A stretch of DNA of 64,000 bases from Oscillatoriales cyanobacterium CG2_30_40_61 (GTDB lineage Bacteria > Cyanobacteriota > Cyanobacteriia > Cyanobacteriales > Microcoleaceae), in contig MNYZ01000094.1 of assembly GCA_001873365.1 (NCBI GenBank), forward strand, positions 1 to 64,000, written 5' to 3'. The notes beneath the pieces are model-generated. The model was not told where the DNA came from and did not search any database. It saw only the letters and a program-made list of their open reading frames with translations. Below are positions 25,727 through 54,574 of this stretch, piece by piece. The position numbers and the translations under genes were made by a program. Every line of letters begins with the position of its first letter. Positions within the stretch are counted from its first letter, which is position 1.

Positions 25727-27058
25727 ATGACTACACCACTGGTTGCGTTACAAAAACCCAAGGATATTTCCCTCAGTCAAATTGAAGCTGAGTTGAGCAG
25801 TATTTGGCTAAGTCAGAATATTGGCAATGGCAAAACCACCGCCATTGCTACCCGGGCGGCCACCTTTAGTATGGTGGTTTATGAACCCGAAGAATTTCAA
25901 CAATTGTTAGGAGCTTTAGGGTTTTATCTCGGCAGTATTGATGGAATTCATGGCACATCAACCCGGGATGCTATTAAAGAAGCTCAGAGAATTTATGGTT
26001 TACCAATTAACGGCCGGGTTGATTCTGATACTTTGGTAAAATTACGCCAAGAATTTGCCAAACTTCCGGCCGCCGATCAAATTATTCCGAATTTGGATGG
26101 ACGGGGATTTAGTATTAGTGAAACCATTGCCGCCCAAAATCCCTGTCGGATTATTACTTTGTGTCCAATTTTGGGAGAGGATACCGGAGTAACGGCCCAG
26201 GTTTCTGCCTATTGTCCGATTCAGAAAAAAAGTGAAGAAGGGTTAGTTTGTTGTGAATATATTACTCTCAGAGGCACAAAAGCAGCCCTAGAACGGGTGG
26301 GAAATGTGGTTTCATCCCTGATGATTCCCGATTTACCTAAGTTTGTTTGGTGGAAAGCTACGCCTAACCCAGAGCAGGAATTGTTCAAACAATTAGCGGG
26401 TTGTTGTAATTGTGTGATTGTGGATTCCTCTTATTTTAGTGATCCAGAATCGGAATTGTTAAAAATGAACGATTTGATTGAACAGGAAACCTATATTGCT
26501 GACTTGAATTGGCATCGACTTTCCCCTTGGCAAGAATTAACTGCTTCTGCCTTTGACCCCCCAGAACGTAGAGCTTCCTTAGTCGAAATTGATAATATCA
26601 CCATTGACTACGAAAAAGGCAATGCGGCTCAAGCCTTAATGTTTTTGGGATGGTTTGCTAGTCGTTTGGAATGGAAACCCGTTTCCTTTACCGACCAGGG
26701 TGGGGATTATGAATTAAAGCATATCGAGTTTATCGGGCCGAATGATCAAAAAATTATGGCTGAACTCGCGGCAATTCCTACGGCCGATTATGGTGAAATT
26801 CCTGGGGATTTAGTCGGGTTACGCTTAACTTCGGGTAACCCTAGTGCTAACTGTTGCACGATTTTATGTTCAGAAACCACCGGATGTATGCGGATGGAAG
26901 CCGGAGGGAGTGCCCAATCTTGTCGGACTGAACAAGTGATCGCCGCTACGGATCAAAAAGCGGAATCCCTGATGGCTCAACAGTTACAGCGTTGGGGACG
27001 GGATGTTCTCTATGAGGAAAGTCTGGATCTCACCGCTCAAATTCTGAAGTTACGATAA
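25727..27058 (+). CDS. opcA: Glucose-6-phosphate dehydrogenase assembly protein OpcA with peptidoglycan-binding-like domain
   Basis: The 443-residue protein activates and assembles G6PDH and is a redox-linked regulator in cyanobacteria. An N-terminal insert (about 58-115; FQQLLGALGFYLGSIDGIHG, then AQRIYGLPINGRVDSDTLVKL) is a PG_binding_1-like fold, seen in OpcA homologues. The OpcA core follows: RIITLCPILGEDTGVTAQVS, LPKFVWWKATPNPEQELF and WHRLSPWQELTASAFDP. Several Cys residues (CCNC, NCCTILCSETTGC) fit redox control. It lies downstream of zwf. No Shine-Dalgarno is visible because the start abuts the repeat; initiation may be weak or depend on the hairpin. A perfect terminator follows. Confidence 0.95.
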   Translation: MTTPLVALQKPKDISLSQIEAELSSIWLSQNIGNGKTTAIATRAATFSMVVYEPEEFQQLLGALGFYLGSIDGIHGTSTRDAIKEAQRIYGLPINGRVDSDTLVKLRQEFAKLPAADQIIPNLDGRGFSISETIAAQNPCRIITLCPILGEDTGVTAQVSAYCPIQKKSEEGLVCCEYITLRGTKAALERVGNVVSSLMIPDLPKFVWWKATPNPEQELFKQLAGCCNCVIVDSSYFSDPESELLKMNDLIEQETYIADLNWHRLSPWQELTASAFDPPERRASLVEIDNITIDYEKGNAAQALMFLGWFASRLEWKPVSFTDQGGDYELKHIEFIGPNDQKIMAELAAIPTADYGEIPGDLVGLRLTSGNPSANCCTILCSETTGCMRMEAGGSAQSCRTEQVIAATDQKAESLMAQQLQRWGRDVLYEESLDLTAQILKLR

Positions 27059-46182: not shown

Positions 46183-46526
46183 TGGGGGCGGTGGGACTTG
46201 AACCCACACGACCTTATAAGGGTCAACGGATTTTCATTCTCCCGTAGCTTTCGCTACTACCAATTGGCGTTGAGAATTGGACTCTCTCTTTACCCTCGGC
46301 TTAACGTTAGGGTAGCTCCCGTCGAGTCTCTGCACCTTCCTAAGATTTAGATTAGATTGGGGAAACTCCCTCATTTCTAATACCCCTAGGCTTGGCTCAG
46401 GATTGCCTTGTCTGAATTCACAGATTTAGGTTTCCCTGAATTTGACAGCTTACACTTGAGAGATTTCTCGCCTCAAGGCTCAATTTATCTTTAAGTCCGT
46501 AGCGTCTACCATTCCGCCACGCCCCC
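46183..46526 (-). tRNA. trnL-UAA: tRNA-Leu(UAA) interrupted by a group I intron
   Basis: Read on the minus strand, exon 1 (46493-46526, 34 nt) starts GGGGGCGTGGCGGAATGG and ends ...GGACTT. Exon 2 (46183-46234) starts AAAATCCGTTGACC and ends with the TPsiC arm and CGCCCCC plus discriminator A. The acceptor stem GGGGGCG/CGCCCCC pairs fully. The intron splits the anticodon loop after the first anticodon base (U-AA), the classic position in cyanobacterial and plastid trnL. CCA is not encoded. Confidence 0.95.
46235..46492 (-). ncRNA. Group I intron of trnL-UAA (258 nt)
   Basis: The intron begins AAAGATAAATTGAG and ends GAGAATG with the terminal guanosine. Core stretches typical of the self-splicing cyanobacterial trnL intron are readable on the minus strand: TCAGGGAAACCTAAATCTG (P3/P4 side), CAAGGCAATCCTGAGCCAAG (P4-P6), GGTGCAGAGACTCGACGGGA (P3/P7) and ACCCTAACG. 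No homing endonuclease is encoded. The length is close to that of the Anabaena intron. Confidence 0.94.
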
Positions 46527-48845: not shown

Positions 48846-49952
48846 ATGATTAAAACTTATGTAAGTAATGCTTTTTTAAAAATTGAAGATTCCCAACTGT
48901 ATGCTATTTTTGCTTGGAGTCAACGCACGGCAGAAATTATTACGGCTAAATCCTGGTTGACAATATTAGAAATATTTGTTCACGAACATTCTTTAGAAAA
49001 AGCTTACCTAATATTTGAACAAATTAAATCAGCGTCAGTAACAGAGAAACTGACGGAGAAGCTAGAGCAATATCAACATCTGATTGAAAATGCTATAGTG
49101 TTTTTAGCCGATGGAAAAATTACAATTTTTGGGAAGGGATTTCGGAGCTTTATCGAAAAGGAAATGTTATTTGAATTGGGTGATATTAGTCAAAATAATT
49201 ACCAAGTTCTGACACAACTATTTTTTGAATATCAATTACAGGATGATTTACAAACCATTAATACCCTAGAAGAATTTAGTAATTTAGTAGAACATTTAGA
49301 ACAACTTGGGTTGCTATCTCCTGCTACAAATTCTATCAATTGGGGTGATTTAAAAAGGACTGTTCCTATTTGTCAAGCCTTTGGTTTAACTAGGGGTACG
49401 CCAGTAGATAGATACTATCTCAGCCGATATTTAGACACAATTCAAACCCAAATTCGTGGTAATATCTTAGAAATAGGAGGCATACCCAAAGATAAAGACT
49501 TCTATGAAGTTAATCCGGGTACATCCTATCAAATTATGAATATAGAACCCGGTTTAGGAATAGATATAGTGGGTGATGCTCACGATTCATCTATAATTAA
49601 ACCTGAATCCTTTGATTCAATTGTAATTTTTAATGTTCTGGAACATTGTTATGCACCTTGGCAAGTAGTAGAAAATATTTATACTTGGTTAAAACCCGGG
49701 GGTAAATGTTTTGCTATGGTTCCTAGTGCGATTAGACTCCATGCTACACCCATGGACTATTGGCGACCTTTACCCGATGCTTTTGCTTGGATGTTTAGAA
49801 ATTTCTCTGACCAAAAGCTCTATATTTATGGTAATCCTATTACTGTGATTGCTAGTTATCATGGCATCGCCACTGAAGAACTAACAACCGCAGAATTAGA
49901 CGCATATCATCCAGATTATCCCGTAGCTACTTGTATCGTAGCTCAGAAATAA
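48846..49952 (+). CDS. SAM-dependent methyltransferase with an N-terminal helical extension
   Basis: From ATG 48846 the protein has 368 residues. The C-terminal class I methyltransferase fold (about 165-368) has ILEIGGIPKD (motif I), VGDAHDSSII, FDSIVIFNVLEHCYAPWQVV and PGGKCFAMVPSAIR. It is preceded by GLTRGTPVDRYYLSRYL, known from glycan-cluster methyltransferases. The first 165 residues form two helical units (about 5-85 and 95-160) that may be winged-helix-like and resemble each other slightly; no domain was recognised. The earlier TTG 48801 is rejected. It sits between the GT14 and GT2 genes, suggesting methylation of a glycan. Confidence 0.8.
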   Translation: MIKTYVSNAFLKIEDSQLYAIFAWSQRTAEIITAKSWLTILEIFVHEHSLEKAYLIFEQIKSASVTEKLTEKLEQYQHLIENAIVFLADGKITIFGKGFRSFIEKEMLFELGDISQNNYQVLTQLFFEYQLQDDLQTINTLEEFSNLVEHLEQLGLLSPATNSINWGDLKRTVPICQAFGLTRGTPVDRYYLSRYLDTIQTQIRGNILEIGGIPKDKDFYEVNPGTSYQIMNIEPGLGIDIVGDAHDSSIIKPESFDSIVIFNVLEHCYAPWQVVENIYTWLKPGGKCFAMVPSAIRLHATPMDYWRPLPDAFAWMFRNFSDQKLYIYGNPITVIASYHGIATEELTTAELDAYHPDYPVATCIVAQK

Positions 49953-51984: not shown

Positions 51985-52746
51985 CTAAATAGAGAAATCT
52001 TTTCCTTCCTGTTCCCTGTTCCCTGTTCCCTGTTCCCTGCTATAGTTACAAATTCCGGTTTTTTGTTCTAGTAAATAAAGTTTGGTTGCTTCTTCATAAT
52101 AGGCAGTGGCTGCGGCAGATTCAGAGGCAATTAAGCGGGTAATAACTTCATTTATTTGGGGAACTTTTGGGTGATTGGCATGAACATAATCTAAGACATT
52201 GTAGCGATACCAAGGGGCAACGCTGGGATGATTGCGTAACTTCTCGCGGATGCGATCGCTAATCAAAAAGTTGGATTTAGTAAATAAGTTGTGCCAATAA
52301 TCACGGGGGTGTAAATTAATATGTCCATGTCCATCTTGACCGGGAACGGCGGCGGAAAATATTACCACTGGTGCAATTTTAGTCAGCCAATTTATGATAG
52401 TAGGTGAACTTTCTGGCTGTAAGTGTTCGGCTACTTCTAGGGATAGGGCTAGATCAAAATGTTTGTCTTGAAAAAAGTTAGCGATCGCGGTAGGATCATT
52501 CAAGTTCAATGGATAAAATTCTACGGATAATCCGGTAAAATCCGGTTGGGAATAACCATCAACAGATGTCACCTGTACCCCTAGTTTTGCCAGTTCTCGA
52601 CTGAGATGACCGGGGCCACAACCAAATTCGGCGACGGTTTTGGGATGATAAATTTCCACAATATACAAGGCTAGGGTCTGGTAATCTGTGTCAAAAGCCT
52701 CGCTCTGAAAATAATCTGAAGTGTAATCAATAGTCTGATTAATCAT
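51985..52746 (-). CDS. Class I SAM-dependent methyltransferase
   Basis: From ATG 52746 the product is 253 residues. The Rossmann core has TVAEFGCGPGHLSRELAKLG (motif I), VTSVDGYSQPD, FDLALSLEVAEHLQPES and VIFSAAVPGQDGHGHINLHP. It is probably a small-molecule or glycan methyltransferase. A GGAAG ribosome site supports ATG 52746 over GTG 52761. The extreme C-terminus (about 236-247) is encoded by four tandem TTCCCTG heptamers and reads as GNREQ-like repeats. The original stop was therefore probably displaced by repeat DNA. It is convergent with the solute-binding protein gene. Confidence 0.85.
   Translation of the reverse strand: MINQTIDYTSDYFQSEAFDTDYQTLALYIVEIYHPKTVAEFGCGPGHLSRELAKLGVQVTSVDGYSQPDFTGLSVEFYPLNLNDPTAIANFFQDKHFDLALSLEVAEHLQPESSPTIINWLTKIAPVVIFSAAVPGQDGHGHINLHPRDYWHNLFTKSNFLISDRIREKLRNHPSVAPWYRYNVLDYVHANHPKVPQINEVITRLIASESAAATAYYEEATKLYLLEQKTGICNYSREQGTGNREQEGKDFSI
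52012..52039. repeat. Four perfect TTCCCTG heptamers inside the methyltransferase 3' end
   Basis: TTCCCTG is repeated four times without change, preceded by a TTCC-TG partial. On the minus strand it is CAGGGAA, the same iteron family as GGGAACA at 58447-58474. It forms the 3' coding end of the methyltransferase gene. Confidence 0.92.
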
Positions 52747-52872
52747 TTGTGTTTCTTCCACTTATCTACTCATACGATAACGGAAAAGTTGACCCCCTAC
52801 GGATTATCTTTTGATTCTTTGATTCGGAATACTCAAGATGTGGTATAGTCGAGAGGTTGTCTAAAAATCACA

Positions 52873-52951
52873 CATCCAGGGATTCGGGTGTTTCTAGGGT
52901 TTAAACCCTTAGCTGATACGCCTGGATGGAGGATTAACCCGAATATAGGAG
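52873..52951 (+). promoter_or_regulatory. Structured rpsB leader with possible pseudoknot
   Basis: CATCCAGG (52873-52880) is complementary to CCTGGATG (52921-52928). ATTCGGGT (52882-52889) is complementary to ACCCGAAT (52937-52944). The two 8-bp helices cross, as in an H-type pseudoknot, with loop lengths of 1, 31 and 8 nt. The 31-nt loop has its own palindrome (AGGGTTTAAACCCT, 52896-52909). The last helix ends two bases before the AGGAG at 52947-52951. In E. coli, S2 represses rpsB-tsf through the leader; a similar role is inferred here. Confidence 0.55.
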
Positions 52952-52960
52952 TTATAAAGA

Positions 52961-53746
52961 ATGGGCGTTATTAGTTTGGCAGAAATGCTGGAGTCTGGAG
53001 TTCACTTTGGACATCAGACCCGCCGTTGGAATCCAAAAATGTCTCCCTATATCTACACGGAGCGTAACGGGGTTCATATTATCGATTTAGTTCAAACCGC
53101 AGAACTAATGGAGGAGGCCTATGATTATGTCAGAAGTTCCTCTGAAAATGGGAAAAAGTTTCTGTTTGTCGGGACTAAACGCCAAGCCGCCGGAATTATC
53201 GCCAGTGAAGCCGCCCGTTGTGGGGGATATTATGTCAACCAACGTTGGTTAGGGGGAATGCTGACCAACTGGGCGACAATTAAAACCCGGGTTGACCGTC
53301 TGAAAACTTTGGAAGACCGCGAGTCTAGTGGTTATTTTGATTATCTTCCTAAAAAAGAAGCTTCGGTTTTACGTCGAGAATTGACGAAATTACGGAAGTA
53401 TTTAGGGGGAATTAAAGCCATGCGTCGTGTTCCTGATGTGGTGATTTTAGTTGACCAACGCCGGGAATATAATGCGGTGATGGAATGTCGGAAATTAGAT
53501 ATTCCAATTGTGTCTTTATTAGATACTAATTGTGATCCTGATTTAGCAGATATTCATATTCCGGCTAATGATGATGCAATTCGTTCGATTAAATTGATTG
53601 TCGGTAAGTTAGCCGATGCAATTTATGAAGGGCGTCATGGTCAAGGTACAGAAGCACCTGACGATGAATATGACTTCGCCGAGTATGAAGAAGATGAAGA
53701 AGAAGTTGAAGATATCGGCGATTTAGATTCGGAGTCGGAAGGTTAA
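52961..53746 (+). CDS. rpsB: 30S ribosomal protein S2
   Basis: The 261-residue ribosomal protein has the standard [58 protein letters not shown] and [20 protein letters not shown]. It ends in a strongly acidic tail ([20 protein letters not shown]), longer than in many bacteria but usual in cyanobacteria. It binds the 30S head and, together with EF-Ts, forms the rpsB-tsf operon. ATG 52961 is nine bases after AGGAG. A TATAGT (about 52843-52848) is a candidate -10 box upstream. Confidence 0.97.
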
Positions 53747-53914: not shown

Positions 53915-54574
53915 ATGGCGGAAATCTCAGCAAAACTTGTTAAGGAACTGCGCGATAAAACGGGCGCGGGGATGATGGACTGTAAGAAAGCCCTGGTTGA
54001 AAACGAGGGAGATATTGCGAAGTCTATTGAATGGTTGCGTCAAAAGGGTATTAGTTCTGCGGATAAAAAAACATCTCGCAGCGCTACCGAAGGCTTGGTG
54101 GGAAGTTATATTCACACTGGCGGACGGGTGGGGGTAATGGTGGAAGTCAACTGCGAAACCGACTTTGTGGCGCGTCGGGAGGAATTTAAGGCATTAGTGA
54201 ATAATATTGCGATGCAAATTGCAGCTTGTCCTAATGTGGAATATGTTTCTATTGATGATATTCCCGCGGCTATTACCGCTAAGGAAAAAGAGATTGAAAT
54301 GAAGCGGGATGATTTAGGAAAGAAACCCGATAATATTAAGGAAAAAATTGTTCAAGGACGAATTGATAAACGTCTTCAGGAGTTATCTTTAGTTGATCAA
54401 CCTTACATTCGCAATCAAGATATTACGGTGGCGGAGTTGGTGAAACAAAGTATTGCTCTGTTAGGCGAAAATATTAAGATTCGTCGCTTTGCTCGTTTTG
54501 TTTTGGGTGAAGGGTTGGAGAAGGAAGAAAAGAATTTTGCGGATGAAGTGGCTGAACAAATGGGTAAAGCCTAG
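53915..54574 (+). CDS. tsf: Elongation factor Ts
   Basis: The 219-residue exchange factor for EF-Tu has the N-terminal UBA-like domain ([20 protein letters not shown]) and the TDFVAR motif ([14 protein letters not shown]) that contacts EF-Tu. It is the short cyanobacterial form, with a shortened core domain and a C-terminal [20 protein letters not shown] module. It follows rpsB by 168 bp, with one hairpin between them. The start ATG has a GAGGAAAAG site. Confidence 0.96.

Follow-up and report, generated by a model that had tools for sequence, protein, structure and literature searches.

The leader of rpsB in the window (the whole stretch of 64,000 nucleotides analysed) contains a conserved and covarying RNA pseudoknot, which sits directly before the Shine-Dalgarno (SD) sequence of the gene and resembles a known motif of rpsB leaders. 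We put the probability at roughly three in four (0.77) that it is a control element in the 5' leader of the rpsB-tsf mRNA, a cyanobacterial form of that motif, in which ribosomal protein S2 stabilises the fold and blocks the 30S subunit. By analogy with E. coli, S2 would be the ligand and translational repression the effect. An earlier note, made from the letters alone, had suspected a control element here, perhaps one that binds S2. This proposal is supported in part: the pseudoknot is real and covaries, transcription probably starts upstream of both helices, and S2 autoregulation is probable.

The gene for S2, rpsB, occupies 52961..53746 on the plus strand, as identified from its open reading frame, its translation and an S2 protein search. 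It is followed by an open reading frame at 53915..54574 (plus strand) that we take, from its translation and the gene order, to be tsf, encoding elongation factor Ts. In the named collection, S2 of Planktothrix paucivesiculata PCC 9631 comes closest (98% identical), and to judge by this protein the window lies in a Planktothrix-like genome.

All parts of the element lie on the plus strand. CACA (52869..52872) is followed by the 5' arm of helix P1 (CATCCAGG, 52873-52880), the 5' arm of the pseudoknot helix PK (ATTCGGGT, 52882-52889), the P3 hairpin region (52890..52920), which has the palindrome AGGGTTTAAACCCT (52896-52909) at its core, and the P1 3' arm (CCTGGATG, 52921-52928). Between P1 and PK stands GGAGG (52928..52932); the PK 3' arm (ACCCGAAT, 52937-52944) comes next and, 2 nt after it, the SD sequence AGGAG (52947-52951). 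P1 and PK are perfect 8-bp helices that cross each other, with loops of 1 nt (52881), 31 nt (52890-52920) and 8 nt (52929-52936). Direct reading and recomputation thus confirmed what the earlier note had described: two crossing pairs with these loops, the palindrome, and a second helix ending two bases before AGGAG (52944 against 52947). From the end of PK to the rpsB ATG there are 16 nt. In the proposed fold, P1 would close the element around the P3 hairpin, and the pseudoknot would arise by pairing of the segment that links P1 to P3 with the one immediately 3' of P1. CACA, as in E. coli, may form the pairs C52871-G52929 and C52869-G52931 around A52870.A52930, leaving A52872 bulged. A nested-only fold assigned P1 a probability of about 1 and PK about 0, as a nested model cannot represent PK; forcing PK into it opened P1 and raised the energy from -30.7 to -22.4 kcal/mol.

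We compared this leader with those of other genomes. Eighty rpsB loci were chosen by their S2 protein as the best 80 of 446 relatives. Two of their leaders (L007 and L052) and six duplicates were left out of the alignment (A1), and covariation statistics for P1, P3 and PK were calculated from 73 distinct leaders. A larger set of 159 leaders comprised L001-L081 and L122-L201 minus two false matches (L148, L149). In this set the PK arms were anchored on GGGU/ACCC and pairs were counted outward; arms were placed by hand in three (L155, L185, L186) of 160 leaders, E. coli included. A covariance model, R1, was built on 73 cyanobacterial leaders using P1 and P3 pairs and no PK pairs. An alignment fitted to the model, A2, comprised 93 matches obtained from 96 sources (none in L182, L183 and L191), and several of its rows had the 3' arm of PK in the wrong place; for the PK count it was dropped in favour of the anchor-based extraction.

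PK is closely fitted to the SD sequence. Downstream of the PK core, 129 of the 159 leaders have an SD-like word: in 97 of them 0-2 nt separate its start from the last PK pair, in 16 the distance is 3-6 nt, and in another 16 the word and PK overlap. Of the 30 leaders without such a word, 29 make up every examined row of one family, f25, membership being assigned by matching leader handles to the genome listing (L127, L128, L130-L132, L137, L139, L144, L147, L175, L177-L180 and L187-L201). All 29 have a 9-bp PK ending 8-15 nt before the ATG, with no SD-like word in between. A PK of 7-9 bp that abuts the SD sequence, and in one family stands where it is missing, seems to be special to cyanobacteria. 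The tight spacing and the SD-less f25 leaders offer a way to test, in laboratory cyanobacteria, how S2 autoregulation works.

Because PK usually ends 0-2 nt before the SD sequence, the simplest reading, which we propose, is that a knot stabilised by S2 would exclude the 30S subunit sterically. Free S2 beyond the need of new 30S subunits would bind the folded leader, perhaps together with S1, and stabilise it. With PK stabilised, the 30S subunit would be unable to dock at the SD sequence, and blocked docking would lead to less S2 and, through coupling, less EF-Ts. For E. coli, the review PMC10931766 describes repression of the rpsB-tsf mRNA by S2, with S1 needed as a companion. It also reports an S2 operator without the ribosome binding site and calls the details unclear for that reason, which makes the 30S-blocking step an extrapolation. 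A more speculative and rather doubtful idea is that the cyanobacterial pseudoknot is fused with the ribosome binding site, abutting or overlapping the SD sequence and replacing it in f25, a family with small genomes. The knot with its looped GGAGG would then be a 30S docking site gated by S2 and S1; the RNA scaffold would be shared with the E. coli operator, the mechanism of repression would not.

The pseudoknot could instead be a constitutive translation aid that recruits S1 or the 30S subunit and spaces the start codon, and involves no S2 feedback. Pseudoknots are one kind of high-affinity S1 target, as stated in the same review, and both the spacing of 0-2 nt in 97/129 leaders and the 9-bp PK of all 29 SD-less f25 leaders fit such a role. 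We nevertheless think this unlikely, as the bulge letters, GGAGG and PK are common to the E. coli leader, for which that source reports S2 feedback.

The open reading frame upstream of rpsB is divergent (51985-52761, minus strand) and leaves a gap of 200 bp, so rpsB needs its own promoter there. An extended -10 element, TGG-TATAGT, can be read at 52841..52849 (plus strand). The pattern TGnTAnnnT, conserved in relatives, occurs 16-42 nt (mostly 27-28) upstream of the element's CRCA in 147 of 157 leaders (L185 and L186 left out), compared with 5.75 on average after base shuffling. From the position of this element we infer that transcription starts at about 52856, ahead of both helices, so that the whole pseudoknot would be transcribed. 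A classical -35/-10 promoter was rejected, since a general sigma-70 scan gave no -35/-10 pair at the rpsB leader. Transcription attenuation, with the leader switching between pseudoknot and terminator, occurs in some ribosomal protein leaders, such as that of L20 in Bacillus (PMC10931766). Here it is very improbable: no terminator-like site was found in 52740-53000 (shuffled sequences contain 0.4 on average), and the element ends at the SD sequence.

If both helices form in the RNA, the earlier note had argued, relatives should show compensatory changes in each. For P1 this was borne out in the 73 leaders, with 97.9% of cells paired and changes on both sides in six of eight pairs; for P3 the values were 92.7% and four of six pairs. 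The inner six PK pairs were invariant in this set. For P1, P3 and PK jointly, none of 500 shuffles reached the observed covariation score, and sliding the partners by 1-3 columns left at most 56.7% of cells paired, against 96.3% in the true register.

PK bears it out as well: the helix is frozen in near relatives but shows compensation in two distant families and in its outer pairs. Among the 159 leaders, pair 5 is C-G in 154, U-A in three and U-G in one, which makes it paired in 158 and broken in one (L140). Pair 6 is paired in 153, with A-U in place of U-A in two. The U-A rows at pair 5 (L134, L174, L184) belong to a single genus of family f24 and the A-U rows at pair 6 (L185, L186) to a single genus of f23; both are compensatory changes, in separate families. 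Further out, pair 7 is kept in 143 leaders, pair 8 in 114 (U-A 49, A-U 44, G-U 11, C-G 8, G-C 2) and pair 9 in 54. The contiguous helix is 7-9 bp long in 141 leaders, 10 bp in one and 4-6 bp in 17. For 72 unique arm pairs, in a permutation test with random partners that ignores relatedness, the mean length of 7.46 bp compared with 7.09 bp (1 of 20,000 permutations was as high), and pair 8 was kept in 42, compared with 31.3 (102 of 20,000 as high). The four inner pairs (GGGU/ACCC) are invariant in all 159 leaders, partly since the arms were found by these letters, which means that no covariation evidence comes from these four core pairs.

These comparisons also bear on whether the conserved feature is DNA, a promoter or operator, with incidental complementarity. 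Such a DNA element would account for the conservation of the extended -10 directly upstream and for the strong conservation of much of the sequence. Compensatory changes in P1, P3 and PK disfavour it, however, as do the variable loops and PK core arm starts that lie from 34 to 157 nt apart, and we give it very little credence.

Crossing geometry by itself is rare and not unique. Dinucleotide-preserving shuffles of 52856-52960 (n=20,000) produced a perfect 8-bp helix in 1,411 cases and a crossing pair in 10. Of 1,229 tiles of 105 nt taken from the window, each overlapping the next by half, three held crossing perfect 8-bp helices; none of the three is the rpsB element, which no tile contained whole. 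Conservation is what makes the pseudoknot convincing, and chance complementarity, for all that crossing perfect 8-mers do turn up in those 10 shuffles, is refuted for practical purposes by the equal structure of the 159 leaders and by covariation.

The three crossing tiles are located at 25793-26053 and 48933-49037 of the window. Elsewhere in the window, a match to the group I intron family (RF00028, 94 bits) was found on the minus strand at 46258-46502, within 46187-46525. Read by eye, it splits an apparent tRNA-Leu(UAA) gene; ARAGORN reported no tRNA in the window. We presume that this is the well-known cyanobacterial tRNA-Leu intron.

The rpsB pseudoknot is widespread in cyanobacteria. The 159 leaders examined all contain the PK core and, at the position of P1, a helix of at least 6 pairs, taken as the longest one there with G-U allowed and without a shuffled control. 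CRCA or TACA stands 5' of P1 in 154 and GGAGG in 145. One hundred of the 159 were located through the S2 protein, independently of the leader: the 80 loci and 20 in-class genomes that R1 had missed. The element was found in 80/80 loci among the best 80 of 446 relatives. A strict motif test passed 64 of these; the other 16 deviate in letters of P1, of the linker or of a loop, or have long loop inserts, and both PK arms were located in all 16. In L007 and L052, the long inserts fall in the loop that joins the 5' arm of PK to the 3' arm of P1, and both arms are kept.

With strict filters, R1 matched in 147 of the 386 phylum genomes; S2 itself was detected in 379 of the 386. By kinship, in a hand count, matches were made in 105/105 genomes of the same order or closer, 40/81 of the rest of the class and 2/200 outside the class. 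Neither of the two outside matches is at rpsB, which lies elsewhere in those genomes, and they were dropped as L148 and L149. Of 41 class genomes without an R1 match, one of which also lacks a detected S2, the rpsB leaders of 20 were fetched, and all 20 carry P1 and PK. Unfiltered, R1 matched 17 of these at E <= 1; the three it missed (L182, L183, L191) have long loops. Outside the class, unfiltered R1 matched the rpsB leader in one of 15 genomes (L202, 21.9 bits).

A family of the same phylum outside the class, f31, perhaps Gastranaerophilales, has a different conserved rpsB leader. Its predicted, covarying three-way junction consists of GGUUA/UAGCC, GNNN/NNNC, UAGG/CCUA and a variable stem, followed by CCCGUAGUA. 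The alignment (A4) holds 17 rows picked by sight (L204, L207, L208, L218-L229, L233, L234), from 15 of 26 sampled genomes and two others, and the structure was predicted from A4 itself. Of its 18 pairs, 8 have changes on both sides, and 96.1% of cells are paired; the covariation score was reached by 0/500 shuffles, and further pair types were within the range of the shuffles (475/500). Among the 11 sampled genomes outside A4, nine leaders start with GATAGG or GTATGG and two (L230, L240) do not. Ten of the 17 loci in A4 gave no Rfam match at the leader at E <= 0.5. This is possibly a separate class of S2 leader.

Known families recognise the leader in the window weakly. At a relaxed threshold, an Rfam scan of 341 nt gave 30.1 bits for t44 (RF00127; E 1.2e-4, cut-off 44) and 28.3 bits for rpsB (RF01815; E 6.9e-4, cut-off 40). 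In a joint scan of 19 cyanobacterial loci, t44 or rpsB came up at E <= 1 in four, each time below cut-off; the E. coli leader scores 83.5 bits for t44. With strict filters RF01815 exceeded its cut-off in 0/386 phylum genomes (E <= 0.01 in nine) and in 0/14 control genomes, which indicates a model that is insensitive in general. The element is present in all 100 leaders located by S2 protein, yet RF01815 stays below cut-off in every one of the 386 phylum genomes, so routine annotation would miss it. In the reciprocal search, R1 found the E. coli leader (L091 265-372, 21.1 bits, E 6.5e-5; next best E 2.8). The leader in the window belongs to the rpsB motif as published, and not to RF01815 or RF00127 at the curated cut-off.

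The earlier note knew of no cyanobacterial version of this form. In this it was mistaken, as Meyer et al. 2009 (PMC2704228) name Cyanobacteria and describe this pseudoknot. Their motif comprises P1, P3 and a P2 that is absent or very short in Cyanobacteria, with a pseudoknot between J2-3 and a 3' extension after P1 in all taxa studied. S2 binding and rpsB regulation are reported for E. coli (PMC2704228; PMC10931766). In a passage of Eckert and Weinberg 2020 (PMC7247131), rpsB stands only in a Bacteroidia row. Our literature search, screened largely by title and abstract opening, found no functional work on the cyanobacterial rpsB leader; Meyer et al. 2009 and the 2024 review were the only papers in it that seemed to bear on this leader.

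The rpsO (S15) leaders of E. coli and mycobacteria share autoregulation of a ribosomal protein through a leader pseudoknot (PMC10931766), with another gene and another ligand. The published rpsB motif (Meyer et al. 2009; RF01815) has the same position upstream of rpsB, a long P1 (8 bp in the window), P3, the absent or very short P2 (a single nucleotide separates P1 and PK in the window) and the same pseudoknot, in which the strand preceding P3 pairs with the 3' extension that follows P1. It differs in the length of the pseudoknot, stated as five pairs in groups other than Firmicutes (PMC2704228), compared with 7-9 bp in 141/159 cyanobacterial leaders, in which PK usually abuts the SD sequence. 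Cyanobacteria and E. coli have in common the succession CACA, P1, GGGU-type PK strand, P3, P1, GGAGG and ACCC. The E. coli rpsB leader (t44, RF00127) shows the same order of CACA (identical letters), P1, GGAGG and a GGGGU/ACCCC pseudoknot, its pairing read by eye, and similar promoter letters, TGTGGTATA. Again by eye, it differs in an extra stem, CATATT/AATATG, inside P1, in PK pair 5, which is G-C and in cyanobacteria mostly C-G, and in the 11 nt that separate its PK from AGAGG, compared with 2 nt in the window.
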